Positions 15,470-31,990 of a DNA stretch of 33,558 nt are shown here, in pieces. The translations under genes were made by a program, and so were the position numbers. The notes beneath the pieces were generated by a model that searched no databases, was not told where the DNA came from, and saw only the letters and a program-made list of their open reading frames with translations. This DNA comes from a virus: positions 1 to 33,558 of IMG/VR virus record IMGVR_UViG_3300025154_000284, one strand, 5' to 3'. The stretch's first letter is position 1; each line of letters opens with the position of its first letter.

Positions 15470-15483
15470 ACTACAGAGGTAGT
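15470..15483 (+). repeat. ACTAC/GTAGT hairpin, copy 1 (loop AGAG = Shine-Dalgarno)
   Basis: ACTAC-AGAG-GTAGT on the transcribed strand. AGAGG at 15475-15479 is the ribosome binding site of the gene starting at 15488, so the SD sits in the hairpin loop. This is the only copy in the + strand half. Confidence 0.85.
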
Positions 15484-15487
15484 CAAA

Positions 15488-15739
15488 ATGAACATTGTTA
15501 AACTTGTATTGGCTATAGCTATGAAGTTAATGGACGGAAAGAAAGCCTACTCAGGAGCAGCGTTGCTAATCCTGACTGGTATTGGTTCGCTGGCTACAGG
15601 TGTTGCCGGGATATTTAGTGATCCACAAATGTCGGTTGACGCGACTGCTGGATTCCTTATCGCTGGCTGTGGTGGAATTGGAGAGGGTATAAAGGGGCTT
15701 GGTTTGCGTGCCGCCATTACAAAAATTAAGGAGTCATGA
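15488..15739 (+). CDS. Small two-segment membrane protein, holin-like
   Basis: An 83-residue protein with SD in the upstream hairpin loop, eight bases from the ATG. The pattern is DGKKAYSGAALLILTGIGSL, a second apolar stretch (AGFLIAGCGGIGEGI), and a C-terminal GLRAAITK. This matches a common phage membrane-protein layout (GKK-x-Y, two hydrophobic segments, GLR-x-A-x-x-K) often placed with holins. Two membrane segments and small size fit a class II-like holin, but function is inferred from shape and neighbours. It is coupled to the next gene. Confidence 0.65.
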   Translation: MNIVKLVLAIAMKLMDGKKAYSGAALLILTGIGSLATGVAGIFSDPQMSVDATAGFLIAGCGGIGEGIKGLGLRAAITKIKES

Positions 15740-16047
15740 TGACTGAACCTCACGATGCAGCTGATATGGGCACAGACCGCCGCCGGTTTTCTGACGAAGA
15801 CATTGAAGCGTTAGTACAAGCGTTAAGTGCACGTTCTCATACCTGTAGATTTGGAGATCTTCATCCTGATCGTGTTTATGCAGCGGTAAGATTGACCGAA
15901 CACATTGAGTCCCTTCTTTCCGAAACAGGTTCTACTGTTCGTAAAACTATTCTCGTTGCGGGAATTGGTGGGCTATTAACCTTACTTATTCTTGGACTGT
16001 ATGCAAAATTAAAACAGGTTCTTGGTATGCCTCCGGTGTTACCATGA
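15739..16047 (+). CDS. Small C-terminally anchored membrane protein
   Basis: Two adjacent ATGs exist (15736, 15739). AAGGAG at 15728-15733 gives a better spacing to 15739. The product (102 aa) has an acidic/polar N-terminal part with HTCRFGDLHPD, then a helical segment, and one membrane helix near the C-terminus (ILVAGIGGLLTLLILGLY). Phage proteins with an H-x-CRF segment and a C-terminal helix are common next to holins; their function is not settled. It could be a holin accessory or antiholin (inference). Confidence 0.65.
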   Translation: MTEPHDAADMGTDRRRFSDEDIEALVQALSARSHTCRFGDLHPDRVYAAVRLTEHIESLLSETGSTVRKTILVAGIGGLLTLLILGLYAKLKQVLGMPPVLP

Positions 16048-16190
16048 GAAAATGTGTCAGGCCGGACATAAACAATGGACGAGCAGTATGTACTCGAAAG
16101 GTAGGAACGACTTGTGAAGAATGTATAGGTTGGAGACGTAAAAAGCAATTGCAGCTTATACGTATTCTGAAAAAGGTTTTATTTAAATGA
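16044..16190 (+). CDS. Tiny Cys-containing basic protein, 48 aa
   Basis: A 48-residue ORF joined at both ends by ATGA overlaps, which supports it as a real gene despite its size. It has Cys at 4, 16, 24 and 27 (CEEC), enough for one zinc site, and a very basic C-terminal half (WRRKKQLQLIRILKKVLFK) that could bind nucleic acid. Function unknown. Confidence 0.55.
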   Translation: MRKCVRPDINNGRAVCTRKVGTTCEECIGWRRKKQLQLIRILKKVLFK

Positions 16191-16390
16191 AAGTAATTTT
16201 ACGCCAATGCTGTGTGTGTAAAAGATTTCTAACAACAGAGGGCAGGTATGTAAAGCTCTTACCTACTTGCCCTCACTTAGCTATCACTAGCGGGTATTGC
16301 CCAGACGATCTTGCGGAGTGGCGGAAAGACATGGACCTACGAATCAGTCGTCGAGCCGGGGATCAATCTCATCGAAGTCGTCTAGCTTAG
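16187..16390 (+). CDS. Small zinc-finger-like protein, 67 aa
   Basis: The start overlaps the previous stop (ATGA). The 67-residue product has CCVCKRFLTTEG and, about 30 residues on, SGYCPDDL. This resembles small zinc-ribbon proteins with C-x2-C and a later SG/HG-x-CP pair, but the final Cys position is Asp, so the metal site may be incomplete or use other ligands. Its last ~47 bases overlap, on the opposite strand, a small acidic ORF of the convergent operon. The tail LRISRRAGDQSHRSRLA may therefore be constrained by that overlap. Confidence 0.55.
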   Translation: MKVILRQCCVCKRFLTTEGRYVKLLPTCPHLAITSGYCPDDLAEWRKDMDLRISRRAGDQSHRSRLA

Positions 16391-16481
16391 TTTGCTCTGG
16401 CAGTTCGTTTGGGTACTCAATTTCCAAGAGCATCATCTGCTTTGTTGTCCTTCCGGTCTTTCTAAAGTCATCATCATACAT
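16344..16481 (-). CDS. Small acidic protein, 45 aa (last gene of the leftward operon)
   Basis: A 45-codon ORF on the - strand whose start overlaps the end of the zinc-finger gene upstream by eight bases. GGGGA lies a short way before the ATG. The product is acidic at both ends (MYDDDFRKTG, LDDFDEIDPRLDD). It overlaps the 3' end of the convergent + strand gene by 47 bases. The coding call rests on the tight junction, the acidic composition shared with neighbouring proteins, and a good open frame; it has no recognised homologue. Confidence 0.5.
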   Translation of the reverse strand: MYDDDFRKTGRTTKQMMLLEIEYPNELPEQTKLDDFDEIDPRLDD

Positions 16482-16941
16482 CTCGTATCCCCATATGTTT
16501 TCTTAATAGCATAGGATATATGGCATTGTCATTTCTAGCTACAGTAACAACAGCTTTTTTCTCAACTTGTTCTCTAGCTTTTAGACAGTGAGCATGATAT
16601 ACTTCTGCTCGGTACAGCGCCAAGTCCTTATGCAGTACTCGCTTATTGCACCATACGCAATAAGAATTAATCTTAGCTTGCTCTTTTTGGTAATCACGTT
16701 TCTTCTTGTTCACCACCTCCTTTATCTCGTAACCAAGTTTTTTAATTTCGTCTCTTGCTTTGAGGATGCTGCGGAGTTGGTGCTTGTAGGTATCAGGCAT
16801 ACCAAAATCTTCGCATATCTCGGAAGCAGAGTGTTCTACAAAATCTTCTCGTCGGACTATAAGCACGGCTATGAGAGCAGCTATCTTATTGTGCTCGTCT
16901 GCGGCTTGTTCGACGTATTCTATTAACTCAGATTTTACCAT
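16474..16941 (-). CDS. Hypothetical protein with a CxxC-HxHC zinc-binding motif
   Basis: A 155-residue protein whose start overlaps the end of the helicase gene by 14 bases. The N-terminal half is helical (IAALIAVLIVRREDFVEHSA) with a possible HTH-like segment around residues 38-60. A charged helix follows, and then Cys95-x2-Cys98 and His116-x-His-Cys119, a plausible zinc site. A zinc domain at the end of a replication operon suggests nucleic-acid binding, but the family is not recognised. Confidence 0.65.
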   Translation of the reverse strand: MVKSELIEYVEQAADEHNKIAALIAVLIVRREDFVEHSASEICEDFGMPDTYKHQLRSILKARDEIKKLGYEIKEVVNKKKRDYQKEQAKINSYCVWCNKRVLHKDLALYRAEVYHAHCLKAREQVEKKAVVTVARNDNAIYPMLLRKHMGIRDV

Positions 16942-18319
16942 ATTTCTTTTCCCTCCATGCTTTTAAGGCTTCAAGAAAGCTCGTTTGATTCGCGTCTTTC
17001 TTATTTAACGAACTGAATACTGGCTCGTCCATCGTTCCCAACATAAGTAATATATGGTTAATAACTTTAGAAGCTACTTGCGCCATCCTAGCAAGCCTAG
17101 CTATGAACTGTTCCCACTCTTCTAGCGACCACGTTAAGCTGTACCATACTATGTCGCTTCCTCCTGACTGAAGGTTTAGGCCGTGCCCTATCGAGGCAGG
17201 GTGGGCTAGAAGAAGTGGAAGTTTACCAGCTTGCCAAGCATGGATAGTCTTCGCGTCATCTTTCTTTTTCGACTTAGAGTTTATGAAAGGTATGTCTTTG
17301 ATCTTCAAGTGTCGGAAAAGATAGTCTTGTATAAGAGGAACTTCCTCTTTGAATTGTATCGCTACAAGAACGTTATGCCCGCTTAACGACTGTATCAGCT
17401 CAGCTAAAGCTTTCAGCCTTTCCTCATGAATATTAACTACACTGTAGTCAGATTTATAAACAAAACCTGATACGAATTGTCGTAGCTTTTGAGTTTTAGA
17501 TTGCTGGTTTAAGGCTTCTATATCATAGCCACAGTTTAGAGTAGTAGAAAAATCCTTTTCGAGTTCATCGTACTTCTCTTGTAGTGGAGCAGACAGCTTC
17601 ATCTTTATAATGTTGTTATGCACGGGAGGTATACCTTCTTGATCCTTCTGGTCTACTACCATAACTATATCACCAATTAAGTCTACTATCTCATCCTTCG
17701 CCCCACTCTTCATGAAGTACTGATACTCTTTCTTTATACAGTATCTATCTCTGAACGCTGTTATGTTTGCCCCTAATCGCTTCCCTCTATCAAGAATAAA
17801 TATCTGCGACCATAGATCAGCTAACGAGTTCGGTGCAGGAGAACCAGATAGTATATTAATTCTTGGAATGAACCTTGTTAGCTCATGGAGTATCTTAGTT
17901 CTCTGTGCCGTAGGATTTTTTATCCATGTTGACTCGTCTATTATAGCCATATCGAAATGAGGAAAAGCATCCCTGTTATTCGACAGCCACCTAGCTCCTT
18001 CATAATTTATGGCTACTATATCTGAGTCTCTAGCTGCTAGAATATCGGCGCGTTTAGACAGGCCATGTATGAAAGAATATTTTAAATGCCTTGTATGCTT
18101 CCACTTAGCTATTTCGTCCGGCCAAGATATTGACGCTACCCTTATTGGGGCAAATAGAAGAACCCTACGAAGCATTAGGAACTCATACATAAGAAGGTCT
18201 ACAACAGTCAAGCAGGTAATAGTCTTTCCTGTTCCCATTCGCATGAACAATCCGAAACGAGGTTTCTGCATCATCATCCGCATAGCCTCGTTTTGCTTTT
18301 TCATTGGTAGGTAAAGCAT
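16928..18319 (-). CDS. SNF2-family DEAD/DEAH-type helicase
   Basis: The start is the ATG at 18319, which overlaps the preceding stop as TAATG. The 463-residue protein has the superfamily 2 core: Walker A MGTGKT (residues 28-33), motif Ia region LLFAPIRV, motif II DEST (128-131, in place of DEAH), motif III SGSPAPN (158-164), and near the C-terminus motif VI QFIARLARMAQ, a degraded form of the SNF2 QxxxRxxRxGQ. It is the phage SNF2 type often found with family A polymerase, DUF2815 and VRR-NUC proteins. Role: DNA translocation or remodelling in phage replication or recombination. Hairpin copy 2 lies inside it. Confidence 0.88.
   Translation of the reverse strand: MLYLPMKKQNEAMRMMMQKPRFGLFMRMGTGKTITCLTVVDLLMYEFLMLRRVLLFAPIRVASISWPDEIAKWKHTRHLKYSFIHGLSKRADILAARDSDIVAINYEGARWLSNNRDAFPHFDMAIIDESTWIKNPTAQRTKILHELTRFIPRINILSGSPAPNSLADLWSQIFILDRGKRLGANITAFRDRYCIKKEYQYFMKSGAKDEIVDLIGDIVMVVDQKDQEGIPPVHNNIIKMKLSAPLQEKYDELEKDFSTTLNCGYDIEALNQQSKTQKLRQFVSGFVYKSDYSVVNIHEERLKALAELIQSLSGHNVLVAIQFKEEVPLIQDYLFRHLKIKDIPFINSKSKKKDDAKTIHAWQAGKLPLLLAHPASIGHGLNLQSGGSDIVWYSLTWSLEEWEQFIARLARMAQVASKVINHILLMLGTMDEPVFSSLNKKDANQTSFLEALKAWREKKYGKI
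17436..17448 (-). repeat. ACTAC/GTAGT hairpin, copy 2 (inside the SNF2 helicase gene)
   Basis: - strand ACTAC-AGT-GTAGT, a three-base loop, located within coding sequence and not near a start codon. Confidence 0.75.
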
Positions 18320-18540
18320 TAGTTTCCCCAAAATATATATGTTTTTCCTGGGTACTTCTGTTGATCGGTGGTAAGCTCATAACCTCTTTCACGCAGCTTA
18401 TAATAAGCAGCAGTTGATATTTCTATCCACATTCCTCCTTCACCTTTTTTCGCTGATTGACGAATTAAAGAATCTATTCCCCTTAATTCACTTGGAAGTT
18501 TAGCTATCTCTCTGGCTTCTTGTGGCGTTATAAAAATCAT
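18319..18540 (-). CDS. Hypothetical protein, 73 aa
   Basis: The start is the ATG at 18540, nine bases after an AGGAGG that sits in the loop of hairpin copy 3. A TTG two codons upstream would be only three bases from the SD. The 73-residue product (MIFITPQEAREIAKLPSELR, later IEISTAAYYKLRERGY) looks like a small alpha/beta protein with no recognised motif. It lies between the VRR-NUC nuclease and the SNF2 helicase and is coupled to the latter. Confidence 0.65.
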   Translation of the reverse strand: MIFITPQEAREIAKLPSELRGIDSLIRQSAKKGEGGMWIEISTAAYYKLRERGYELTTDQQKYPGKTYIFWGN

Positions 18541-18545
18541 TTTCA

Positions 18546-18560
18546 ACTACCTCCTGTAGT
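18546..18560 (-). repeat. ACTAC/GTAGT hairpin, copy 3 (loop AGGAG = Shine-Dalgarno)
   Basis: - strand ACTAC-AGGAG-GTAGT. The stop codon (TAA) of the VRR-NUC gene overlaps its 5' arm, the loop plus next G is the AGGAGG ribosome binding site, and the next ATG follows nine bases later. Confidence 0.9.
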
Positions 18561-18955
18561 TATTTCATTAGCCATCGTGGAAGTTCAGGTACTAAGCCAT
18601 TTGCTAAAATCCATTTAGCTATAATTATTACCGCATCAAGCTGGCCGTAGCAGTCAACGACGAATACTATTGCTCCTAGCTCTCTTCTCTTCGCATGATC
18701 TTTCATCTGTTGAGGTGTCGCTGTTTCTTTAGGCTGCTTAAACTCGATAAAGAATATCAACGCGGACGGATAATCAGGAGCAGTTATTATATCATCTGGT
18801 ACAGAGCGCTTCTGTGGGGAAGTAAACTTCTCCATTATCCATCCGAGCTTTTTGAACTCGTCTCTCGCGTAGTCTTCGATATCCTTCTCCAAAAGTTTTC
18901 TTCCTACTCTATTCGTCAACTGCTTGAACGGTGGCGACATGTTCTTGAAGGGCAT
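18560..18955 (-). CDS. VRR-NUC domain nuclease
   Basis: An ATG at 18967 exists, but GAGG six bases before the ATG at 18955 favours the latter; this gives 131 residues. The fold matches the PD-(D/E)XK VRR-NUC family: Glu23 in LLEKDIEDYARD, then KRSVPDDI with Asp54, FFIEFKQPK with E71-x-K73, and PQQMKDH with Gln83. These are the expected metal-binding and catalytic residues. Phage proteins of this type are thought to act as structure-specific or Holliday-junction nucleases. The 5' end overlaps the previous small gene by 47 bases. Confidence 0.87.
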   Translation of the reverse strand: MPFKNMSPPFKQLTNRVGRKLLEKDIEDYARDEFKKLGWIMEKFTSPQKRSVPDDIITAPDYPSALIFFIEFKQPKETATPQQMKDHAKRRELGAIVFVVDCYGQLDAVIIIAKWILANGLVPELPRWLMK

Positions 18956-19118
18956 GTAATACCTCATTAAGTACGTTTAACTGGACATGTCTTCGACGCA
19001 TAGCTTGAGTACAGTATTGTATAGCAGCTCCTGCTAACTTACTATGCACCGCTTCGAGTAAAACGCCATCGTTTATACCCGCCTTTACGAGTTTTTCGTT
19101 TAAAGTTTTCCAGAACAT
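18909..19118 (-). CDS. Hypothetical helical protein, 69 aa
   Basis: The start is the ATG at 19118, supported by AAGGAG seven to eight bases upstream and by TAATG overlap with the previous stop. The product looks all-helical (MFWKTLNEKLVKAGIN, YCTQAMRRRHVQLNVLNEV). Its 3' end overlaps the VRR-NUC gene in another frame. No family recognised. Confidence 0.6.
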   Translation of the reverse strand: MFWKTLNEKLVKAGINDGVLLEAVHSKLAGAAIQYCTQAMRRRHVQLNVLNEVLHALQEHVATVQAVDE

Positions 19119-19330
19119 TATATAAGCTCCTTCTTTTCGGCTAACCACTCAGGAATTATCATCTTATAAGTTTGGCCTTTGATTAGGTCGAAGTCTTCAA
19201 TCTTACTCTTTGGTATCCAAGCTTGCTGTCCGTCGATTGATACAAGGTAGGCAAGATCAGTTTCATGCTCAAGGTCTACAGTAAGTTCTACGAAATCACC
19301 GTCTACTCCGAATAGTCTTTTAATTTTCAA
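19118..19330 (-). CDS. Hypothetical protein, ~70 aa, with a non-AUG start
   Basis: No ATG exists in this frame near the N-terminus. The two other hairpin-type junctions in this operon have ATG at the equivalent position; here the triplet is ATT (19322-19324). The alternative is TTG at 19328-19330, only three bases after AGAGG. The body (KRLFGVDGDFVELTVDLEH, QQAWIPKSKIEDFDLIKGQ) reads as a small beta-barrel-like domain and is clearly coding by composition. It follows the DNA polymerase directly. Function unknown; translation from AUU or UUG would make it weakly or specially expressed. Confidence 0.6.
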   Translation of the reverse strand: MKIKRLFGVDGDFVELTVDLEHETDLAYLVSIDGQQAWIPKSKIEDFDLIKGQTYKMIIPEWLAEKKELI

Positions 19331-19343
19331 CTACCTCTGTAGT
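19330..19343 (-). repeat. ACTAC/GTAGT hairpin, copy 4 (loop AGAG = Shine-Dalgarno)
   Basis: - strand ACTAC-AGAG-GTAGT. The DNA polymerase stop codon overlaps the 5' arm; AGAGG in the loop would serve the downstream non-AUG gene. Confidence 0.9.
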
Positions 19344-21333: not shown

Positions 21334-21347
21334 ACTACCTCTGTAGT
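21334..21347 (-). repeat. ACTAC/GTAGT hairpin, copy 5 (loop AGAG = Shine-Dalgarno)
   Basis: - strand ACTAC-AGAG-GTAGT between the 94-aa gene and the polymerase. The upstream TAA overlaps the 5' arm; the polymerase ATG lies nine bases after AGAGG. Confidence 0.9.
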
Positions 21348-21769: not shown

Positions 21770-22480
21770 TTAACCTAACAAGGACATAAGCTCGTCCTTA
21801 TCCGCCGCTTGTTTTTGTCCGTTCATCAACGAACTAAGAAGATCGTCCGCTGCATCTTCAGGGAGCCCTGATCCGAGCATTTCGCCATAAAGACCATTGG
21901 CCGCATCGTCTATGCTATCCTTCGATGGACCACCAGAGAAACGCTCACCCTCCATGATAAGAGTAACACCATTAAGAGCTACCGCAACGCCGTTCTTCTT
22001 GTTGGCGAATGGGTACAGCGTAATATCCCATACGCACCAGTCTCCGGACTCAATGATACCTGATTCTGTCACCTCCTTACCATGGGCTTTAAGCCTTGGG
22101 CGACCGTCTTTCTCTCGCCTTTTAGCAGTAAAGTTCCAACACCCTGCATACGCGTCGTACTTCTCAGCAGACTCCTTAGCTTTCTCGTCGCCATTATTGA
22201 TCGGCAACTGAAGCTTCGCAGGTTTGGAACCGTTCCACTTCTTTCTGATACCAATCTCTATTGCGTCTTTCACTCCTTGGATAAGAACCGAGATGGCCTC
22301 TACCGGCGCATTTTTCGGGACGAGCACAGCAGACTTATAGCTCTTTGGTCCATCCTGTTTATCGTCGTCATCCAGCGTTGCCTCAAGGCAGTTGAAGTAA
22401 GACGATCTACCGGCGATAACTAACCGCACCTGGTCAGCAGGAGTGTCAATACGTTTTGCTTTGATATCTTGGGGTTTCAT
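21770..22480 (-). CDS. DUF2815 single-stranded DNA binding protein
   Basis: A 236-residue protein; AAGGA lies about nine bases before the ATG. It fits DUF2815, the phage single-strand DNA binding protein family: an early YFNCLEATLDDDD, KSYKSAVLVPKNAP, then YDAYAGCWNFTAK, WCVWDITLYPFANKKNG, and VAVALNGVTLIMEGERFSGG. The C-terminus is acidic and hydrophobic (DAADDLLSSLMNG, then DKDELMSLLG), like the flexible tails of other SSBs that recruit partners. The same tail type ends several neighbouring proteins. It would coat single-stranded DNA during phage replication. The 3' side is followed by two hairpins. Confidence 0.9.
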   Translation of the reverse strand: MKPQDIKAKRIDTPADQVRLVIAGRSSYFNCLEATLDDDDKQDGPKSYKSAVLVPKNAPVEAISVLIQGVKDAIEIGIRKKWNGSKPAKLQLPINNGDEKAKESAEKYDAYAGCWNFTAKRREKDGRPRLKAHGKEVTESGIIESGDWCVWDITLYPFANKKNGVAVALNGVTLIMEGERFSGGPSKDSIDDAANGLYGEMLGSGLPEDAADDLLSSLMNGQKQAADKDELMSLLG

Positions 22481-22535: not shown

Positions 22536-22549
22536 ACTACACATGTAGT
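22536..22549 (-). repeat. ACTAC/GTAGT hairpin, copy 6 (loop ATGT)
   Basis: - strand ACTAC-ATGT-GTAGT just after the DUF2800 gene stop, about 55 bases before the DUF2815 start; no SD in the loop. Confidence 0.85.
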
Positions 22550-22553: not shown

Positions 22554-23852
22554 TTATTCTAACAAGCTACTCAGCAGATCATCATCTCCTTTTTCTTCCG
22601 CTGGTTCATTGAGAAGGTCATCGAGAAAGTCGCTCCCTTCTACAGTAACATGGTCTGTTAAACCTTCGAACAAGCCATCGATTACATCGTCAACCGATGC
22701 AAAGCTTACCGCTTCGCGAGGATCGTCTTCATGTACGAGTATCTTCTGGCCTTCGACCCATTGCACTTGAGCAGAGAATTGTTCTTTCGCTTTCTCCGAG
22801 TCAAGCTTTCCTTCTTTCTTCAATACCGTTTCAGCTTGCGGTGCGGTGATAAGAGTAGACTTGTACCTCGCCGCTATAGATACACCCTTTTTCTTCAAGA
22901 ACGCGTCTGCTTCTGCTTCGTTGATCCAGGATCGTTTACCTTTTCCATTTACAATCTTGAAACCTGGAACGTTCTCTCCGTTAAGAGCAATTTCAGTAGC
23001 TATAGAAAACGCTGTAGCAGTAAGATTCTTGATAGCTGTTTCATATCGCATGAGCTTCAAGAAGAAAGACCTATTATCGCGTCTAGGTATTTCTTTTGGC
23101 GTCATGTCCTCGAAGAAATATTCGTCGATAATACCGTCGATATTATCATTCGACTTCTGACACTTACCAGCCTTGTAAAGCTTACAGTATTTCTCACCAC
23201 ACCAAGGACCAGGATTGAAAGTACCTTTACCATCGAGGATAGTCTTCTGGACCTTAGACAGTACTTCTCTATCCCACTTACGTAGAGACTCAACGTTATC
23301 CTCGAATGTGGCTGCACCGTGTCCGATCTTTGGCTGAATGATAGACATTGCTACTCTTTCAACAACTGCATCTATCTCTGGATGCTCTTCCAAGAACGCT
23401 ATCCCGTACACTTTAAGCTGGCTGTTGTTAATGCAGTTTACACGGACTCGACCAAACTTATAGTCGATGATGTACAGCTTTTTACTTTCCGAGTCCCAAA
23501 TAATAATGTCCGCTGTGCCGAAACAATCTTCACGCCAACCTTTCATGTCAACGCGCTTTTCAAGATAAACTACAGCGATTTTGCTACAGCCTTTCAGTAT
23601 GTCTTTAGCTGCTGATACAGCTATAATAACTTCGTTCCATTCCTGCTCTGGGATGCCATCTGGAGTCGGCCCTCTTGGATCAATCTCACCTTTCCACAAC
23701 CGCTCTGCAAAGGAGTGTTGAATTGTACCCATCGATGACTGCTCCGATGATTGGTCGCCAAGATTCGCATCGATTACTGCTTGCGGCATGGCAGTACAAT
23801 TCAACCACAATCCAGAAGCAGAGGGCGATAGTAGTTTACTATGTTCCGCCAT
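22554..23852 (-). CDS. DUF2800 Cas4/RecB-like exonuclease
   Basis: A 432-residue protein; AGGAGG is seven bases before the ATG. It fits DUF2800, a PD-(D/E)XK nuclease related to RecB/Cas4. An early LSPSASGLWLNC carries Cys20. GTADIIIWD (Asp115) and LYIIDYKFG (D130-x-K132) give the nuclease core, and WCGEKYCKLYKAGKC gives Cys218, 223 and 231. With Cys20 these four could hold an iron-sulphur cluster as in Cas4/AddB-type enzymes. The C-terminus (EKGDDDLLSSLLE) is the acidic tail shared with neighbours. It probably makes single-stranded ends for recombination with the DUF2815 protein and polymerase downstream. Confidence 0.9.
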   Translation of the reverse strand: MAEHSKLLSPSASGLWLNCTAMPQAVIDANLGDQSSEQSSMGTIQHSFAERLWKGEIDPRGPTPDGIPEQEWNEVIIAVSAAKDILKGCSKIAVVYLEKRVDMKGWREDCFGTADIIIWDSESKKLYIIDYKFGRVRVNCINNSQLKVYGIAFLEEHPEIDAVVERVAMSIIQPKIGHGAATFEDNVESLRKWDREVLSKVQKTILDGKGTFNPGPWCGEKYCKLYKAGKCQKSNDNIDGIIDEYFFEDMTPKEIPRRDNRSFFLKLMRYETAIKNLTATAFSIATEIALNGENVPGFKIVNGKGKRSWINEAEADAFLKKKGVSIAARYKSTLITAPQAETVLKKEGKLDSEKAKEQFSAQVQWVEGQKILVHEDDPREAVSFASVDDVIDGLFEGLTDHVTVEGSDFLDDLLNEPAEEKGDDDLLSSLLE

Positions 23853-24408: not shown

Positions 24409-24422
24409 ACTACACATGTAGT
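24409..24422 (-). repeat. ACTAC/GTAGT hairpin, copy 7 (loop ATGT)
   Basis: - strand ACTAC-ATGT-GTAGT, two bases after the stop of the HTH gene and ~30 bases before the 24380 start; an A-rich tract follows, as in most copies. Confidence 0.85.
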
Positions 24423-24424: not shown

Positions 24425-24736
24425 CTATGACAACATGCTTAACAGCTCTTCATCTTCAATTGGTTGTCTTGTTATCTTACTAGAACCTAAAACATATATG
24501 CGCTCACCGTCTTTTGTGTATCGTCTACCTCCTTTCTTAATAAGCTCATGAGGTTCAACAGCGCCCTGTGACCATCGAACGATCATAAGCGCAGCTTCTA
24601 AAGAGGGTGTTGCGGTGCCGTACACTATAGACTCGATAGTAGAATGCTTTGGCGACCCCCCGAAGATATCGGTTATCTCTTTCTCTACCTGTCTGAAAGA
24701 TAGGTTTTTTCTTTTCATGTACTCAAGTAATGTCAT
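24425..24736 (-). CDS. Small Cro/CI-type helix-turn-helix protein
   Basis: A 103-residue protein with a strong GGAGGG ribosome site. The segment LSFRQVEKEI ... KHSTIESIVYGTATPSLEAA, then LMIVRWSQGAVEPHEL, has the layout of Cro/CI-type HTH proteins: helix 2, recognition helix with ST-x-x-S-I, and a following helix used for operator choice. The C-terminus (IEDEELLSMLS) carries the acidic-hydrophobic tail seen in neighbouring replication proteins, which is unusual for a repressor. It could be the regulator that binds operators in this module; this is not shown by sequence. Confidence 0.75.
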   Translation of the reverse strand: MTLLEYMKRKNLSFRQVEKEITDIFGGSPKHSTIESIVYGTATPSLEAALMIVRWSQGAVEPHELIKKGGRRYTKDGERIYVLGSSKITRQPIEDEELLSMLS

Positions 24737-24752: not shown

Positions 24753-27587
24753 TTAAGGTTTAGAGAACCGCCACATGCTACACCCTCCAGGTCTAACACG
24801 ATCTAGTTCCCATCCTGTTACTGCTGTGATATCATTCTTTATACTGCTTAGGCGGATGCCAAATGTTCTTACTGATGTTGGCATTTTACGTAAGGATATC
24901 TCTACTACCGTGCCACCTAAATTAAACTGTTTTCCTGCGTTCTCGTTGGCAAACTTTTGAAATGTTAAGAACAGTTCACCCGGAGTCATCTGAAAATCTT
25001 GGCCGAAAAAAGTATTGGTGTCAGCAATAACCCATGCCATTATTTGGGAAGTTGTAGAGGATAGCATAGCTTCGTTAACATCCCGTTGCTGCTTTCTCTT
25101 TTTTATTTGAGCTAGGATAACTTTTTCATCGCCTTTAAGGTACCCAAGATGCTGCATTATTACTACCCTGGCGGCTACTCCCCACATATCCCTGTCATTC
25201 AAATCTGCTCTGATTAGGCGCTTTGTGTTAATGTACTTTATAACCTTAGATGCTAGTAGCATTAAACCCATACGCATACCACCTTTTTCTTGTTCCCAAA
25301 GTGCGTATATGTCACCTATTTTCTCTTTCTTTTTCTTACTTACTGCAACGCTAATAGACCTTGATCGTAAATCCTGGTTAGTTATTATCGGCGCAAGGCA
25401 GGTTAGTATTAATGGCTTCTTAATTACCAAACCTATAAACTCCTGAGTGTACATAACTCTCAGATCGAACTTCCAACCAGTAGCTATCGAGCATAACAAG
25501 TCTTGCATACTTGGAGATAAATTACTTAGATTATCGACAATAGTTATATGCCTTGACCTAAGTATCTTAGCCAAATCCTCCTTCTTGTAGAATCCATTAT
25601 GCAAGTCTTGACCCTCTCTGATATCTGAGCTAGTTGGGTCCACTAGTTCTTTCGTCAACAAAGCAGATACAGTTTTTCCATCTCCTGAAGCTCCTGTAAA
25701 CTCTAATAAATGCGCTGTGCCAGTGTTAACCAAAGCTTGAAGCTGCCAAGCTATAACATCTATCAGGGATTCAGAGTCTTCCACCGTAACAAAACGCCGC
25801 ATGTTTTTTATGAAACTAGATATGCTAAAATCTTTTTCCTCCTTAGAAAGATTTGGTCTATAGTCTATCTCAGCCGGACGAATTGTTTTGTCTGTGAGCC
25901 ATACAACAGGAGACTGCATACTTGGAATACATCTTACATCATCTTCCGTAACTACACATGTAGTCATTTCTTTATTGACTATGCCCATGTTGAAGTAGGT
26001 TACATTTTTTCCGTTTTCAAGACTTGTGTAACAGCGATTTTCTACTACGACTTTATTGAATAAGGTAGTTCCTTCTTCTCTTGACTTAGCTACTAACACC
26101 TTCATCATACTGTTCTCAAATTGTGGCGGAACAGCATCGGAAAATAGCTCAATAGCTTTCGAGTATAGGTCATTACGAACGCCGCTATCTAACCCTATCA
26201 AGCTATACCCTTTTCCATTGTTCTTACGGCAGTACATACCTTGATCTATAGACCCCTCTATCCAAGTAAACTGAGCGAAAACCTGATCCATCATCGACCC
26301 TATATCAGTTTTATTGAAGGAGCTTAAAGCCTTGTCTATATCCGCTACAGTTACTTTCCCTCTCAGCTTTGTCTTGATGATGTTTCTGATAGATGCCCAT
26401 TTTCCAGGGTCTTTTGATCGTATGGTACGATATGCTTCTATTATATCACGGTCAAATAGTATAGAAGGATTAGCCCCACCTATTACAGCTTTTAGTGCTT
26501 TAGCTACGTCATTTACTCTTTGGTCTGCGCCTTCTCCGAACTGCTTTTGCAATGCGGTGTTGAGGTAGTTACGGAACCGAGCTTTATCATAATACTCCCG
26601 GTCTTTCTTATCCCCACGAACGCCATGTTCATTAACAGATGACCATACTAACGTGAATATCTTCTCGACGTAGTAATTAATATTTTGTTGGACTACGTTG
26701 TTGCCGACTTCTTGGACGAGTTGAGCGCAAGCCCTATATGCTGGCTCGTTAATACCATGTTGAGCTGTACCGCACAGCTTCAGTGTTTCTTCCCAAGTTG
26801 TGTTTAACTTGTCAGAGTTTTTAACTACTCCTGTAGTTGAAATAGCTTGAGCATATGCACTCGACATTGATATCACCGACTGCATATGCCCCTCCAAGAC
26901 AGCCTTGTTTATAGTGGGGGCAAGGTTGTCACAATGCAAAGTAAGCCGGAGAGAGTCAGGAAGTGGGTCGATAAATCCCTGGCACTCTCTCCTAGATATA
27001 AAGTCCGGCTGCACTTGGAGGAACAATGTCGGATCAATTTTACATTTGGGGCTACTCTCATTATAAGCGCGGCCCCAATCATACAAAACAGATAGATTTA
27101 TTTTTTCAGATAACTCAAAATACACATGTGCCCTTAGCCGCTTCCAGTTCCAAAAGGAACTAGACAACAGAACACAACAAGCTACGTCCTTAAGCATAGT
27201 TAAGCCAACTTGATTAACTAACAGCTCTTTTACGGTGTCATATATGCCTTGTGGTGTTTTTAATGAAAAGCCATCTGGCACAGGCCAATCATCTGCGTCT
27301 ATCAGAAGCAGGTTTGTTCCAGCATCTGAGAAGTTGCATTTTTTTCTTCTTACTTCTTTGCCTATGTCAGGTAGCGGTGTTCCAGGTATACGTATAACAG
27401 GAATATCAGCGCACTTAGCTAGTAGGTCATGCCAACCTGCTAAACTATTTACCTCGATTGATTTATAATGGAAGTTCTCACCAAGTTTATATGGCTCCTT
27501 TAATACCGGCTTTCCATTCGCAAGAGAAAATAGCTTTGCTGTACGCGCCTCCTTCCATGTAGGTTTCAGCAACGTTATTGATATCAT
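24753..27587 (-). CDS. Primase-helicase (AEP primase plus P-loop ATPase)
   Basis: A 944-residue protein under its own promoter. The N-terminal part fits an archaeo-eukaryotic-type primase: LLLIDADDW (Asp97, Asp99), LSSSFWNWKRLRAHVYFEL (His154), and KIDPTLFLQVQPDF (Asp185). The C-terminal part is an ATPase/helicase: Walker A TGASGDGKT (~631-639), Walker B-like ITIVDNLSNL (~681-690), LLCSIATGW, and a sensor/arginine-finger stretch DLRSRSI (~739). This architecture is known in phage and mobile-element replication proteins. It should prime and unwind DNA for the family A polymerase. Two hairpin copies lie inside the gene and encode STTGVV and TTCVV. Confidence 0.87.
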   Translation of the reverse strand: MISITLLKPTWKEARTAKLFSLANGKPVLKEPYKLGENFHYKSIEVNSLAGWHDLLAKCADIPVIRIPGTPLPDIGKEVRRKKCNFSDAGTNLLLIDADDWPVPDGFSLKTPQGIYDTVKELLVNQVGLTMLKDVACCVLLSSSFWNWKRLRAHVYFELSEKINLSVLYDWGRAYNESSPKCKIDPTLFLQVQPDFISRRECQGFIDPLPDSLRLTLHCDNLAPTINKAVLEGHMQSVISMSSAYAQAISTTGVVKNSDKLNTTWEETLKLCGTAQHGINEPAYRACAQLVQEVGNNVVQQNINYYVEKIFTLVWSSVNEHGVRGDKKDREYYDKARFRNYLNTALQKQFGEGADQRVNDVAKALKAVIGGANPSILFDRDIIEAYRTIRSKDPGKWASIRNIIKTKLRGKVTVADIDKALSSFNKTDIGSMMDQVFAQFTWIEGSIDQGMYCRKNNGKGYSLIGLDSGVRNDLYSKAIELFSDAVPPQFENSMMKVLVAKSREEGTTLFNKVVVENRCYTSLENGKNVTYFNMGIVNKEMTTCVVTEDDVRCIPSMQSPVVWLTDKTIRPAEIDYRPNLSKEEKDFSISSFIKNMRRFVTVEDSESLIDVIAWQLQALVNTGTAHLLEFTGASGDGKTVSALLTKELVDPTSSDIREGQDLHNGFYKKEDLAKILRSRHITIVDNLSNLSPSMQDLLCSIATGWKFDLRVMYTQEFIGLVIKKPLILTCLAPIITNQDLRSRSISVAVSKKKKEKIGDIYALWEQEKGGMRMGLMLLASKVIKYINTKRLIRADLNDRDMWGVAARVVIMQHLGYLKGDEKVILAQIKKRKQQRDVNEAMLSSTTSQIMAWVIADTNTFFGQDFQMTPGELFLTFQKFANENAGKQFNLGGTVVEISLRKMPTSVRTFGIRLSSIKNDITAVTGWELDRVRPGGCSMWRFSKP
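25951..25964 (-). repeat. ACTAC/GTAGT hairpin, copy 8 (inside primase-helicase gene)
   Basis: - strand ACTAC-ATGT-GTAGT, the same loop as copies 6 and 7, here within codons 541-546 (MTTCVV). Confidence 0.8.
26824..26837 (-). repeat. ACTAC/GTAGT hairpin, copy 9 (inside primase-helicase gene)
   Basis: - strand ACTAC-AGGA-GTAGT within codons ~250-255 (STTGVV). Its loop looks like an SD, but no start codon follows in a useful position. Confidence 0.8.
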
Positions 27588-27632: not shown

Positions 27633-27647
27633 TCAAGGACTTGTCAA
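27619..27647 (-). promoter_or_regulatory. Sigma70-type promoter for the primase-helicase operon
   Basis: - strand TTGACA (27642-27647), 17-base spacer, TATATT (27619-27624); the initiator region lies about 25 bases before the ATG at 27587. The -35 box overlaps the stop codon of the preceding gene. Confidence 0.8.
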
Positions 27648-28201: not shown

Positions 28202-28206
28202 TGTCA

Positions 28207-29397
28207 TTACCTCTTGTTAAAGATTAATACTTCGCCGAATGGTGGCTCGAACTTAAAGTGATTCTGCCAAATGAGCCAAAGAACAGGGTAGTTAGGAGTC
28301 GGTGGAAAACTACTACACTCTCCATCGGTCATGTACACCAGTACATCAGGCTCGATACCCTTTTCCTCAAGATAGATGAAAGGTGGTTTGAAGTCCGTGC
28401 CACCTCTACCTTTAGGCTGTAAATCAGGAATCTCGCCCTCTTCAAAAAACTGATAAGACTGAATCTTAGTGCCACACCACATAACATGCAGTTCTTCAGG
28501 CTCTACTTCTTCCACCATGCCGATTATTTCAGAAGCCATCTCCTTTATCTCAGCCAAAGATACTGAGCGAGAAGTGTCACCAGCAAAAGCAACTATTGGT
28601 CCACGTTCCGACCACATGCTAGGAAGAATAACGTCGCATGAATCAGATTTCTTGTTTGGCCTTGAGAATGTATAGTCGTCCATTCCAGTTGTACGAATAA
28701 GAAACTCAGCAAAGGCGTCTTTCCAGTTTATTTCAGCTTCTGTTAGTTTGTCCAAAATAGCGGCGACATCACCGGGCAAGTTGCCGGACATTTTAGCCAT
28801 CTGAATTGACTCTTGCATCTTCTGCTGGTGCTTGTCAATAAGCTCTTGTTGCTTTACAAGCAAAGTTCCTTTACCTCGATTTTGACTACCTTGTAGTTGA
28901 TCTTTCGTATTCTCCTTATCGTCGTTACCTAGCTCAGGATCAGGTTCAAGTTCCCCATGCTTATCTGGGTTATGCTGCTTCTGTGGTGGGAGTGGTTGTT
29001 TCTGAGTCTCGATCTCCTTGTATATCTCTTCAAATGACCAAGTAGACCATTTATGCTCATAAAGAGCATTAGCTGGCAACTGAAAATCAGAGTGCAGCAA
29101 TATAGAATTAACAGCTATGTCCGCCGCTACTTGTTGATTGTCGTTGTCCCAATCTTCATGATATCTTACATGATGGCCGAGGAATATATGTCCTAACTCA
29201 TGAGCAAAGTAGAACACCTGATCGTCTCTCGACCTAACAGCCCGAATAAATGCAGGATTGTATTTTACATCTGTTCCGTCAGTAGATAACGTTTTAACAT
29301 TTTCGTCAGCTACAAACGGAGTATCCACCAAGAACTTTATGAACAGCGGCATCTTGATAGCCAGCATTGCTCTTATATCATCAATTTTAAAGTCCAT
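28207..29397 (-). CDS. DUF2201-type protein: metallopeptidase-like domain plus VWA domain
   Basis: A 396-residue protein with GAGG before the ATG. The N-terminal domain has AHELGH (His66, Glu67, His70), the HExxH zinc site. A charged Gln/Pro-rich linker runs from ~130 to 190. The C-terminal domain is a von Willebrand A-like fold with MIDAS motifs DTSRS (274-278), GGTDF (332-336) and TDGE (357-360). This matches the DUF2201 layout, which pairs with MoxR-type ATPases such as the one just upstream. Together such pairs are thought to work as chaperones or remodelling machines for protein maturation. Target in this phage unknown. Confidence 0.85.
   Translation of the reverse strand: MDFKIDDIRAMLAIKMPLFIKFLVDTPFVADENVKTLSTDGTDVKYNPAFIRAVRSRDDQVFYFAHELGHIFLGHHVRYHEDWDNDNQQVAADIAVNSILLHSDFQLPANALYEHKWSTWSFEEIYKEIETQKQPLPPQKQHNPDKHGELEPDPELGNDDKENTKDQLQGSQNRGKGTLLVKQQELIDKHQQKMQESIQMAKMSGNLPGDVAAILDKLTEAEINWKDAFAEFLIRTTGMDDYTFSRPNKKSDSCDVILPSMWSERGPIVAFAGDTSRSVSLAEIKEMASEIIGMVEEVEPEELHVMWCGTKIQSYQFFEEGEIPDLQPKGRGGTDFKPPFIYLEEKGIEPDVLVYMTDGECSSFPPTPNYPVLWLIWQNHFKFEPPFGEVLIFNKR
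28885..28897 (-). repeat. ACTAC/GTAGT hairpin, copy 10 (inside the DUF2201-type gene)
   Basis: - strand ACTAC-AAG-GTAGT, in the linker-coding region (codons ~167-172, QLQGSQ). Confidence 0.75.
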
Positions 29398-29406
29398 AGC
29401 TTCACC

Positions 29407-30504
29407 TCAGAATGAACTTGTTTTATTCTTCAATGCTGACAAGTAGATATCTGCATTCTCCGCGCACCATGTCCGGGCTTCCCGACTTTTTATCAAGTCG
29501 TTGTTCATAGCCGATATGGTCCGCATAAAAATAATCTGATATTCTTTGGCGAACTTCTTAACAACTTGAATTACCTTCGGCAAGTCTTTTACTTTAGCCC
29601 TGTTTGCCATCATACCCATTATAGCGTACCTAACGTCTGCGGTATGGTTTATCTCGAATCCTTCTGGGTCTGCTATAATCTCTTCATACCGAGGAAGCCT
29701 CAGATACATCTTACAGAAGGCATTGAACTTTTTCCCATAGCCTTCTCCGATGGTAGACTCACATACTTTTCGAACAAAAATGTCGTCCGCTCCTTTCATT
29801 GCAACCAAGAACTTACCGAGCTTTTCCCATAAACGCGGACAAGGACTGTTCTCCATTCCTATGTTTGGATTCCAGTCATGCAGGGCTTGCGTATCATAGT
29901 TCAAATAATCTATGACTACATGAGGTAGTTGTTTTTTGTACCAGTAGTCGCGAAAGCTATCCAGATCAGCTACCAGCTCAACAATAATACCGAAACGTGA
30001 TTTCACAGGTTCAAGCAGACCTTTGACTCCAGCTTTATCTTCCCGGCTATTGGTGGCCGCAATGATATGTATACAGTCCGGTATTTTTCTTTCACCTAAC
30101 TGACGCGATCCTAGAAATTGCATATATCCTGCTTGTACAGATGCTGGAGCTTGCCCGAAGTCGTCAAGGAACCACAGAGTAGGTTCAGTTGCTTCCATAA
30201 GGCGTAGCTGCTGTCCGAATGGCAAATGTGTAGCGTATTCTTGCTGTACAGGAGCGTTACCTAGCATAACATCAAGCTCGTCACCTACGATCCGCGTAGC
30301 CTTCGCAGGGTATCCAGAACGTTCAGTAGGGTCTTCAATAGCCGGATGGGATAATTCAACATGAAAATTATTATCATCGGCGAACATATTAACGCCGACC
30401 GTCTTCCCGATTCCAGGCTTACCGACGATAAGCAGATTTTCCCTTGTGCGTACAGCAAGGTCAATGAAAGATGGCAATTCAGCATGAGTGATTTTAGGTA
30501 TCAT
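29407..30504 (-). CDS. MoxR-family AAA+ ATPase
   Basis: The start is the ATG at 30504, with AGGAG seven bases upstream; an ATG 14 codons earlier lies in the leader. The 365-residue protein has Walker A GKPGIGKT (28-35), Walker B LWFLDD (110-115), sensor 1 AATN (149-152) and the GLLEPVKSRFG segment expected in MoxR proteins. It is followed by its usual partner type, a metallopeptidase/VWA protein, nine bases downstream. The pair likely forms an ATP-driven remodelling or metal-insertion complex. Hairpin copy 11 lies in the gene. Confidence 0.9.
   Translation of the reverse strand: MIPKITHAELPSFIDLAVRTRENLLIVGKPGIGKTVGVNMFADDNNFHVELSHPAIEDPTERSGYPAKATRIVGDELDVMLGNAPVQQEYATHLPFGQQLRLMEATEPTLWFLDDFGQAPASVQAGYMQFLGSRQLGERKIPDCIHIIAATNSREDKAGVKGLLEPVKSRFGIIVELVADLDSFRDYWYKKQLPHVVIDYLNYDTQALHDWNPNIGMENSPCPRLWEKLGKFLVAMKGADDIFVRKVCESTIGEGYGKKFNAFCKMYLRLPRYEEIIADPEGFEINHTADVRYAIMGMMANRAKVKDLPKVIQVVKKFAKEYQIIFMRTISAMNNDLIKSREARTWCAENADIYLSALKNKTSSF
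29915..29929 (-). repeat. ACTAC/GTAGT hairpin, copy 11 (inside MoxR gene)
   Basis: - strand ACTAC-CTCAT-GTAGT, a five-base loop, within the coding sequence (QLPHVVI). Confidence 0.75.
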
Positions 30505-30517
30505 AGTGTTTCTCCTG

Positions 30518-30537
30518 TTTTTAGTGGTTTTAGTGGC
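30518..30537 (-). repeat. Leader element with CCACTAAAA-type direct repeats (copy B)
   Basis: - strand CCACTAAAA repeated twice, ending in the AGGAG of the MoxR gene. It is related to the element at 22492-22520. Confidence 0.5.
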
Positions 30538-30538
30538 G

Positions 30539-30883
30539 TTATACAAACATTTCCGGGATATCTCTTAACGTATAATTTAAGGACCGCCAGGCGTCAGATA
30601 TATTGCCTTTTAATCCTCCGTTTTCAACAATCTTATAGGCAGCAGATCGGCATTGCTCTTTCTGTTTTTCAGGTAAATGACTAATAGCTTGTTTTGCCCA
30701 ATTGTAATTAAGCTCTTTCGTAACATCGATTTGTATGTTTAGCGTGCGATTCTCAATGTGGCAAGACTTAAAACCGTCGCGTGCTTTGATAGTTTTATGA
30801 TCGTCTTGCACTTCCAGATCAAATAATTTTATAGCGTGGTTCAGTTCATTCAAGTTATCGAAATGTGCTATTATAGTTAGCAT
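30539..30883 (-). CDS. Hypothetical protein, 114 aa
   Basis: AGGAGG lies before the ATG at 30883. The product has an N-terminal beta-type region (MLTIIAHFDNLNELNHAIKL, then RTLNIQIDV) and a helical C-terminus (NYNWAKQAISHLPEKQK). It is the first gene after the 31004-31032 promoter, with a 110-base leader containing two hairpins. Early position and strong leader suggest a regulatory or takeover protein; nothing in the sequence identifies it. Confidence 0.65.
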   Translation of the reverse strand: MLTIIAHFDNLNELNHAIKLFDLEVQDDHKTIKARDGFKSCHIENRTLNIQIDVTKELNYNWAKQAISHLPEKQKEQCRSAAYKIVENGGLKGNISDAWRSLNYTLRDIPEMFV

Positions 30884-30905
30884 AAAATGTCCTCCTAAGT
30901 TTTCA

Positions 30906-30918
30906 ACTACAAGGTAGT
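30906..30918 (-). repeat. ACTAC/GTAGT hairpin, copy 12 (leader of 114-aa gene)
   Basis: - strand ACTAC-CTT-GTAGT, followed by TGAAAA as in the RBS-type copies; the SD (AGGAGG) follows a few bases after. Confidence 0.85.
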
Positions 30919-30946
30919 TAACCGGTCCTCAAATTTTGATAACGGA

Positions 30947-30971
30947 TCATTCGTTTAAATGCCACGAATGA
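30947..30971 (-). other. Leader hairpin (8-bp perfect inverted repeat)
   Basis: TCATTCGT (30947-30954) and ACGAATGA (30964-30971) with a nine-base loop, between the promoter and the 30883 start. It could be an RNA hairpin or a DNA operator. Confidence 0.65.
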
Positions 30972-30982
30972 CGCCATATATG

Positions 30983-31054
30983 CCCCATATATTCAATGAT
31001 CTTAATATAACATGACTGTTAGTATATATCAAGTTTAGCATCAAATATATGGGG
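30983..31054. promoter_or_regulatory. Perfect 11-bp inverted repeat flanking a promoter (candidate operator pair)
   Basis: CCCCATATATT (30983-30993) and AATATATGGGG (31044-31054) lie on either side of the -10/-35 boxes, 61 bases apart centre to centre. A related CCCCATATAT is at 32250-32259, next to the start of another gene. Confidence 0.6.
31004..31032 (-). promoter_or_regulatory. Sigma70-type promoter
   Basis: - strand TTGATA (31027-31032), 17-base spacer, TATATT (31004-31009). It lies in a 190-base gap and would drive the 114-aa, MoxR and metallopeptidase/VWA genes. Confidence 0.75.
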
Positions 31055-31073
31055 TGTTTTCGAGGCGTTGAGA

Positions 31074-31349
31074 TTATTGGCAAAGCGATTGCTCTTGTTC
31101 TTCTGTGAATGGTACGCGAGACTGATAGAAGACGCCATATCCTACGCAATCGACTTTGTAAATCTGTTCAGATTGTGAATAGAAGAAGCATGCGAGTAAT
31201 ATGCAAGCTAGTAAAATTATAGCTCTTAATTTTCGATTGGGCTTTCCACTCGGCCCAAACAGATAGCAAGTGCATAATCTACATTGTGCCATTGCGTCTC
31301 TGTCACCTTTACAAGTGTAGCCGACTGCATCTTGATATTTGCATATCAT
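31074..31349 (-). CDS. Small Cys-rich membrane protein, ~91 aa
   Basis: Two ATGs are possible (31355, 31349); GGAG is eight bases before the second. The N-terminal part has Cys at 3, 13, 23, 26 and 28 (CRLCTC), a possible metal or redox site. One membrane helix follows (RAIILLACILLACFFYS, ~42-58). The C-terminal ~30 residues have two more Cys and would lie on the other side of the membrane. It directly follows the Cys-X-X repeat protein gene (overlapping its stop), and both are cysteine-rich, suggesting a joint function. Confidence 0.6.
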   Translation of the reverse strand: MICKYQDAVGYTCKGDRDAMAQCRLCTCYLFGPSGKPNRKLRAIILLACILLACFFYSQSEQIYKVDCVGYGVFYQSRVPFTEEQEQSLCQ

Positions 31350-31351
31350 AG

Positions 31352-31960
31352 TCATATCTCCATAAGTTGAAATACTTGATCTATAAGAGCATTGTATCTT
31401 ACTCCATACTCGTTTTCTCCATGCGTTTTATTTACAGCTTCTAAAAACTGATAAATGTTACCGTTAAAACAGCCACAGATAATCTGAGTATCGCCGAAAC
31501 AATCCCAGTACACTTTTATCTCAGATTTTCTACTTCCGATATTCTGAAAGAAAATTCTAAAAGGATTATGCTTAAAGTGGGAACAGTCTAAACAGTCTAA
31601 ACAGCCGGAACAGCTGGAACAGCTGGAACAGCGGGAACAGCGGGAACAGCGGGAACAGCGGGAACAGCGGGAACAGTCTAAACAGCGGGAACAGTTGAAA
31701 CAGCTGGAACAGCCGGAACAGTCGGAACAGTCGGAACAGTGGGAACAGTTGAAACAGCTGGAACAGTCGGAACAGTCGGAACAGTAGAAACAGTCGGAAC
31801 AGCGGGAACAGTGGAAACAGTTGAAACAGCTGGAACAGTCGGAACAGTCGGAACAGCCGGAAAGACTTTTACTCTTTTCTTCAGCTTGTTTTTTCGTGTT
31901 AGTATTGCAGCTCCACGAGTTATTATTATCGTCAATCCATCTGTTATTTAACTTTTTCAT
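31352..31960 (-). CDS. Cysteine-triplet repeat protein (31 x Cys-X-X)
   Basis: A 202-residue protein; AGGAG is seven bases before the ATG. Residues 36-128 are 31 consecutive Cys-X-X triplets, mostly CSD, CSR, CSS and CFN, with runs such as CSR x5. A 70-residue C-terminal domain follows (EIKVYWDCFGDTQIICGCF, then FLEAVNKTHGENEYG). This C-terminal type, I believe, recurs in phage proteins that carry other short repeats, but has no assigned function. A period of three puts every Cys on one face of a polyproline-II or 3-10 helix, so metal binding or disulphide packing is possible. The gene is AT/GC-atypical because of the repeat. Confidence 0.8.
   Translation of the reverse strand: MKKLNNRWIDDNNNSWSCNTNTKKQAEEKSKSLSGCSDCSDCSSCFNCFHCSRCSDCFYCSDCSDCSSCFNCSHCSDCSDCSGCSSCFNCSRCLDCSRCSRCSRCSRCSRCSSCSSCSGCLDCLDCSHFKHNPFRIFFQNIGSRKSEIKVYWDCFGDTQIICGCFNGNIYQFLEAVNKTHGENEYGVRYNALIDQVFQLMEI
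31577..31855. repeat. Tandem 9-bp repeat array (31 units) coding Cys-X-X
   Basis: Units are GGAACAGNN on the + strand (TGTTCC on the coding strand) with variants such as GAAACAGNN and TAAACAGNN. Five identical GGAACAGCG units in a row point to recent slippage. The unit length preserves frame on expansion or loss. Confidence 0.9.
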
Positions 31961-31976
31961 AGTTATTCTCCTTTTG

Positions 31977-31990
31977 ACTACATAGGTAGT
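31977..31990 (-). repeat. ACTAC/GTAGT hairpin, copy 13 (leader of the Cys-X-X gene)
   Basis: - strand ACTAC-CTAT-GTAGT, followed by CAAAAGGAG, so the SD lies just after the hairpin. Confidence 0.85.

Follow-up and report, generated by a model that had tools for sequence, protein, structure and literature searches.

Dispersed, lineage-specific palindromes in uncultured phages: candidate double-stranded DNA sites for a single protein, possibly acting in transcription control

Introduction

Few systems of dispersed sites in phage genomes are understood. The conserved inverted repeats of phiC31 and the repeats of SPbeta are dispersed palindromes that lie near promoters and are bound by a phage regulator. 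In cluster A mycobacteriophages such as L5 and Bxb1, about 20-30 short sites called stoperators are scattered over each genome, mostly in one orientation relative to transcription and in some cases at promoters, with a consensus that is specific to the lineage; each is a 13-base-pair (bp) asymmetric site to which a monomeric repressor binds (PMC6550527, PMC9283540). Here we analyse the repeat ACTAC-N3-5-GTAGT (N, any base) in IMG/VR virus record IMGVR_UViG_3300025154_000284, the entire 33,558 bases of which we call the window. A sequence-only reading of this DNA, made without database searches, had reported 13 copies of the repeat. We find that it belongs to a family with three spellings (types 1, 2 and 3, with type 1 in the window), the sites of which are exact, can be counted, overlap coding sequence and show clear gains and losses. 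The best overall explanation, to which we assign a probability of about 0.45, is that the repeats are lineage-specific palindromic sites in double-stranded DNA, read by one protein for the control of transcription.

The sites resemble stoperators in copy number (26-39 in near-complete sister genomes and 13 in the window), in dispersal and in their lineage-specific spelling, and possibly also in a tendency to one orientation. They differ from them in that each is a palindrome of two half-sites, with a total length of 13-16, variable spacing and exact arms, in that many copies lie deep within genes, and in that no repressor was recognised. Unlike the phiC31 and SPbeta repeats, the family tiles the genome with exact arms. 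Another precedent comes from plasmid RK2, with its KorB operators (OB), and from sites of the ParB/parS type; these are short palindromes from which one protein acts along the DNA (PMC11790492). The phage sites are likewise short palindromes, and a ParB-family gene accompanies the phages with type 3, but no such gene was found in the lineage of the window, and the spacing is 3-6 in type 1 and 1-2 in type 2, being fixed only in type 3. Their number is also far above that of the RK2 operators. Finally, the start-associated sequences of cluster K mycobacteriophages are asymmetric, overlap ribosome-binding regions and are conserved in position among relatives (PMC3203893). Overlap with ribosome-binding regions and conserved position recur here, but 5 of the 13 copies in the window are intragenic, away from any start.

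Results and discussion

Anatomy of the palindrome

All 13 copies reported by the sequence-only reading are present at the coordinates it listed (Table 1), within the span 15470-31990 that it gave; there is no site in positions 1-15,469 and no further copy in the whole record. The excess over chance that it claimed is borne out by 100 dinucleotide-preserving shuffles of the window, in which exact matches averaged 0.05 and never exceeded 2, and a reversed control pattern gave 0 matches in the window. Invariant arms with varying loops were also described correctly, the arms being exact and the loops 3 to 5 long in the window.

Together with two sister phages, G001 and G003, the window provides 71 type-1 sites, from which the fuller motif is YRACTAC-N3-6-GTAGTYR (Y, pyrimidine; R, purine). 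Outside the arm, a Y followed by an R was found in 142 of 142 half-sites, and beyond this pair lie about five A/T-rich positions. Total lengths are 13 (43 sites), 14 (20 sites), 15 (7 sites) and 16 (1 site), with a spacer of 3-6 that was never seen shorter than 3. On the coding strand, the spacer favours A or C at its start and G or T at its end, and the right flank reads YR-AAAA, with A at +3, +4, +5 and +6, counted from the right arm, in 86, 81, 78 and 57% of 69 type-1 sites from the window and the two sister genomes; this is the A-rich tract on the transcribed side that had been noticed before. The core is palindromic and the A-rich flank lies mostly on the 3' side of the coding strand, with some copies antisense.

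Copies of the site are all-or-none. Exact and one-mismatch copies number 13 and 0 in the window, 26 and 4 in G001, 32 and 0 in G003, and 39 and 0 in the more distant phage G009. The earlier description was sound as far as it went; it had missed the flanking YR, and had covered neither the absence of one-mismatch copies from the window nor the genome-wide family in sister phages.

Sister phages and the second spelling

Relatives came to light when IMG/VR was scanned for the pattern and searched with proteins. All are metagenomic contigs, and six genomes carry type-1 or type-2 sites. Type-1 copies number 26 in G001 (40.6 kilobases, kb), 15 in G002 (31.4 kb, for the most part a duplicate of G001) and 32 in G003 (43.6 kb), the replication proteins of which are 60-70% identical to those of the window. 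A second lineage, with 45-50% protein identity to the window (about 48-50% in the polymerase), has the type-2 palindrome YAACTAAC-N1-2-GTTAGTTR in 29, 27 and 39 copies (G004, G005 and G009, respectively). In near-complete sister genomes, the 26-39 copies extend over the whole genome, across structural and replication genes alike, at about one per 1.4-1.6 kb. Site spacing has a coefficient of variation of 0.34-0.67 and is more even than random placement (P <=0.03) in all five genomes tested; three sites of G004 lie inside its 5-kb tape-measure gene.

At the DNA level, similarity to cultured phages amounted to no match in near mode and one 78-bp match in distant mode. A 944-amino-acid (aa) protein of the window has no match among cultured phages, and a search of bacterial genomes for prophage relatives by means of this protein returned none. 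Nor did convincing dispersed palindromes turn up in the distant relatives MW202496 and G008, or in the first 50 kb of two others, KPP23 and Donnerlittchen.

Conserved positions, gain and loss

Some sites keep their position across the family. One lies immediately 3' of the polymerase stop codon in 6 of 6 phages with types 1 and 2. At alignment column 272 of the 944-aa protein there is a type-1 site in the window, G001 and G003 and a type-2 site in G004 and G005, and at column 519/520 of a 607-616-aa protein of the structural region the site is type 1 in G003 and type 2 in G004, G005 and G009. Column 319 of the SNF2 protein has a site in three phages, with a length of 13 in the window and G001 and 14 in G003 and with the right arm at identical codons; column 205 of the DUF2201 protein also has one in three phages. 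Elsewhere, a copy is missing and another is found nearby: the 944-aa protein of G009 has no site at column 272 and one at column 137, and the copy in the MoxR gene of G001 is 63 codons from the position common to the window and G003.

The intragenic sites use all three reading frames, and therefore the constraint acts on nucleotides. Within a lineage, orthologous intragenic sites have fixed arms and drifting loops. From one lineage to another, the arm is respelled as a whole, with symmetric, concerted changes from ACTAC to ACTAAC and, further away, to TGCCAC, which imply a recogniser acting in trans.

The recogniser could belong to the host, in which case the sites might serve as a self-marker, as targets of a methyltransferase or restriction-related enzyme, or as Chi-like elements, and the lineages would differ because their hosts do. 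All-or-none exactness and YR-type degeneracy do resemble enzyme recognition sequences, and no binder came to light in the phage. However, promoter- and junction-specific positions are kept over large divergence, and phages of the type-3 group encode a candidate binder themselves (see below), so that we regard host-read sites as very improbable.

A site adjoining a strong promoter

The rightward operon of G001, G003, G004 and G005 has a strong sigma-70-like promoter (0-1 mismatches) with a site upstream of its -35 element, at a distance of 4, 10, 11 and 11 bp, respectively. The counterpart of this region lies beyond the right end of the window. Most other predicted promoters are without an adjacent site.

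Duplex DNA or hairpin

The sequence-only reading had proposed either a protein-binding site or a conserved RNA structure. The former is supported by our results and the latter is less likely, given unpaired flanks, weak type-2 stems and a fixed type-3 palindrome accompanied by ParB. In the flanking YR pairs, the commonest combinations are A.C and C.A, which do not pair and would be expected to be rare in a stem; the flanks thus show none of the covariation of stem pairs. Predicted in silico in native context, the RNA stem has a mean probability of 0.60-0.77 for type 1 versus 0.33-0.38 for type 2, and the weakly folding type-2 sites sit at positions homologous to type-1 sites. No Rfam family matched at the gathering threshold. 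Unpaired flanks, weak type-2 folding and the fixed spacing of type 3 thus favour duplex DNA with two half-sites joined by a flexible link, and we consider it likely that the repeats are double-stranded DNA sites for a sequence-specific protein. Fixed arms with drifting loops, which had been suggested beforehand as the mark of protein binding, were found within lineages; the concerted symmetric change of arms between lineages fits either model.

If the sites acted instead as mRNA hairpins (ACUAC-loop-GUAGU), an RNA-binding protein or ribonuclease could use them as translational operators, antitermination sites or processing sites. That type-1 loops never have fewer than 3 nucleotides, that the stem of type-1 sites is present, on average, in 0.60-0.77 of the ensemble, that the coding-strand flanks are A-rich and that several copies hold a Shine-Dalgarno sequence in the loop would all suit such hairpins. 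We nevertheless think them unlikely, as a strict YR flanks both arms but does not pair, folding is poor for the type-2 copies that sit at homologous positions, the 9-bp arms of type 3 enclose a centre of 2 bp, Rfam offers no match and antisense copies exist.

Hairpins in single-stranded DNA would be of two possible kinds, hairpin promoters like those of phage N4, or lagging-strand priming sites spaced like Okazaki fragments. The virion RNA polymerase of N4 recognises a small directional hairpin with a 3-base loop, the bases of which are required (PMC4496689). The short stem, loops of at least 3 and orientation with transcription recall these promoters, and a spacing of 1-2 kb would suit priming, but loop bases vary here, whereas the N4 polymerase needs defined ones (PMC4496689), no RNA polymerase gene was recognised among the proteins scanned, and ordinary sigma-70-like promoters are present. 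This explanation, too, seems to us very improbable.

A third spelling accompanied by a ParB-family protein

The distant phage G007 (30% polymerase identity) has SNF2, DUF2800 and related genes in common with the window, and carries 15 copies of TGCCAC-YR-GTGGCA, mostly within GAYTGCCACYRGTGGCARTC. This type-3 site is a 20-bp palindrome of fixed spacing, with a 2-bp centre and 9-bp arms. Many contigs in IMG/VR have this family; 47 fetched loci, some of which share a contig, bear at least 2 copies. At 36138-37250, G007 encodes a ParB-family protein (PHROG 723, E 8.5e-7; Pfam ParB_N 0.0018 and HTH_ParB 0.03), and all type-3 contigs spanning the locus encode it at 57-68% conservation. A profile search with this protein gave matches on type-3 contigs only, and nothing matching it turned up among cultured phages. 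In the related phage G008, both ParB and dispersed palindromes are missing. From this co-occurrence, we infer that the type-3 ParB binds the type-3 palindromes.

Copies of the type-3 ParB-family gene in uncultured phages include L269:16138-17250 (-), L286, L328, L317 and L283. A pattern scan of bacterial genomes for the type-3 spelling alone found 13 stretches, with several copies on only one contig. This contig, JABCTV010000177.1 (L372; 5.9 kb, binned as Thorarchaeota, 0.57x coverage), has three type-3 sites and is probably a mis-binned phage fragment.

The ParB-family gene of the type-3 group raises the possibility that the same double-stranded DNA sites serve the handling of the whole genome, by loading a clamp, ParB-like or otherwise, to coat, condense, partition or protect it. 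Tiling that is even whatever the type of gene, including the three sites in the G004 tape-measure gene, and the replacement of lost sites nearby are consistent with this role. We find it rather unlikely, because neither ParB nor ParA was found in type-1 and type-2 phages, orientation mostly follows transcription, a conserved copy adjoins a promoter, and 15.5 kb of the window tolerates zero sites.

Control of transcription as the favoured role

By analogy with the systems described above, we tentatively suggest, at odds a little short of even, that the role of the sites is the genome-wide silencing or control of transcription. One protein, probably encoded by the phage, would contact two inverted half-sites (KGTAGTYR; K, G or T) across a short flexible spacer. 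It may load at sites along the genome and control or silence transcription, in the manner of the L5 repressor on its stoperators or of KorB on its RK2 operators. The copy adjoining the promoter in four sister phages would act as an operator. Junction copies have room after a stop codon and ahead of the Shine-Dalgarno sequence that follows, and intragenic copies maintain the spacing in long genes. The system would then be a variant of the dispersed-operator kind.

Several observations weigh against this explanation. No binding protein was recognised in type-1 and type-2 phages with Pfam, PHROGs or a hidden Markov model of the type-3 ParB; ParB itself was not matched there by any of the three, and ParA was likewise not found. 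Neither an integrase nor a recognised repressor was found, so that lysogenic silencing is only a possibility. A spacer range of 3-6 bp is unusual for a rigid dimeric operator, and a few copies, such as those of G003 at 33245 and 40025, are antisense to their own gene as judged from the A-tract. The minimum spacer of 3 and the A-rich coding-strand flanks are also expected of an RNA hairpin, and keep an RNA or single-stranded DNA hairpin alive as a less likely explanation.

No binder of the type-1 and type-2 sites was found in the phages, and it is possibly a host protein. The 392-aa candidate (Table 1) occurs only in the six phages with type-1 or type-2 sites, a distribution that other core genes show as well. 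Its predicted structure has a mean predicted local distance difference test score of 47 over the full length and 63 in the C-terminal part, with no useful PDB match. We found no support for this protein as a ParB or for a hidden ParB in types 1 and 2. The XRE/Cro-like protein is disfavoured, as its recognition-helix residues differ among the window, G001 and G003, which have one type of site.

On a bolder reading, which we think somewhat less likely than not, the family could represent a recurrent phage strategy not described before, in which exact palindromes, placed every 1-2 kb over the whole genome, serve to load a dedicated DNA-binding protein; this would be of ParB type in one group and of another, perhaps novel, family in a second. 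The density of sites would be under selection, because the spelling switches in concert and lost copies are replaced nearby. The family is a natural experiment in which the specificity of a protein and the spelling of its sites, dozens in number, change together. For the lineage of the window, the analysis predicts a DNA-binding protein; for another, it associates dispersed palindromes with a ParB-family protein.

The sites in the window and their surroundings

Eight of the window sites are at gene junctions and five are intragenic (17436, 25951, 26824, 28885 and 29915), with genes taken from simple open reading frame (ORF) calls. Over the half of the window that has them, the sites recur about every 1.4 kb. 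At 18546, 19330 and 21334, the site separates a stop codon from the start that follows, and its spacer contains a Shine-Dalgarno-like sequence.

Table 1. Coordinates, strand and context of the palindromic sites and other features of the window
Feature	Coordinates	Strand	Sequence and context
Site 1	15470..15483	+	TA-ACTAC-AGAG-GTAGT-CA; 4 bp 5' of ATG of 83-aa ORF (15488..15739 +); sole copy oriented with + genes
Site 2	17436..17448	-	TG-ACTAC-AGT-GTAGT-TA; within SNF2-family helicase ORF (16928..18331 -), frame GAC TAC AGT GTA GTT; column 319, also in G001 and G003
Site 3	18546..18560	-	TA-ACTAC-AGGAG-GTAGT-TG; between stop of 18560..18967 and start of 18319..18546; spacer is Shine-Dalgarno-like AGGAG
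Site 4	19330..19343	-	TA-ACTAC-AGAG-GTAGT-TG; immediately 3' of DNA polymerase ORF stop; junction site also in G001, G003 (type 1) and G004, G005, G009 (type 2)
Site 5	21334..21347	-	TA-ACTAC-AGAG-GTAGT-TG; immediately 5' of DNA polymerase ORF
Site 6	22536..22549	-	CG-ACTAC-ATGT-GTAGT-TG; 3' of DUF2800 ORF stop
Site 7	24409..24422	-	TG-ACTAC-ATGT-GTAGT-TA; 3' of XRE-like ORF (24425..24736 -)
Site 8	25951..25964	-	Within 944-aa ORF (24753..27587 -), codons TTCVV; column 568 in window, G001 and G003
Site 9	26824..26837	-	Within 944-aa ORF (24753..27587 -), codons TTGVV; column 272, type 1 in window, G001, G003 and type 2 in G004, G005
Site 10	28885..28897	-	Within DUF2201 (metallopeptidase/VWA) ORF (28207..29397 -), codons QLQGS; column 205 in three type-1 phages
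Site 11	29915..29929	-	Within MoxR-like ATPase ORF (29407..30546 -); common to G003; G001 copy 63 codons upstream
Site 12	30906..30918	-	TA-ACTAC-CTT-GTAGT-TG; upstream of 114-aa ORF (30539..30883 -)
Site 13	31977..31990	-	CA-ACTAC-CTAT-GTAGT-CA; between 83-aa ORF (31996..32247 -) and 202-aa Cys-rich ORF (31352..31960 -)
Site-free left half	1..15469		Tail/adsorption half; no site in 15.5 kb
XRE/Cro-like protein, 103 aa	24425..24736	-	Assigned by reading the sequence; no match in Pfam or PHROGs
392-aa protein, open at contig end	32378..33556	-	First gene of leftward operon; candidate binder

Over positions 1-16000 of the window, G+C content is 0.56 at first, declines to 0.45 across the left half and then reaches 0.41, and most ORFs of the left half have no homologues in sister phages. 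Type-2 phages have a clear homologue of the ORF at 6922..8808, and two other left-half ORFs have weak or distant homologues only. The compositional change and the lack of homologues suggest a mosaic join near 15-16 kb, an assembly join being less likely. On the simplest reading, the left half would be a recently acquired tail/adsorption module that has gained no sites.

Non-coding divergent regions with lineage-specific repeats occur in G001 at 38.6-39.5 kb (L128; AAAGTCCACTATA), in G004 at 42-43.3 kb (L135; TGTCAACTAA) and in G005 at 23-25 kb (L137; CACTTGACAC). These repeats look like the iterons of replication origins. A half-site of the palindrome is present within TGTCAACTAA of G004, but not in the repeats of G001, G003, G005 and G009; we treated it as a coincidence and rejected the idea that the putative iterons are the same motif.

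The 202-aa protein encoded at 31352-31960 (-) consists of cysteine-serine repeats of the CSDCSDCS type, and a pentapeptide-repeat protein is found at a comparable place in G003 (17649-18437). Several early proteins of the window (21770-22480, 22554-23852, 24425-24736 and 32378-33493) and their homologues have similar acidic-hydrophobic C-terminal tails (DELMSLLG, DDLLSSLLE, DEELLSMLS and VEDLLDGLA, with DDLLNSL in G004 and G005), as if they were to dock on one common partner.

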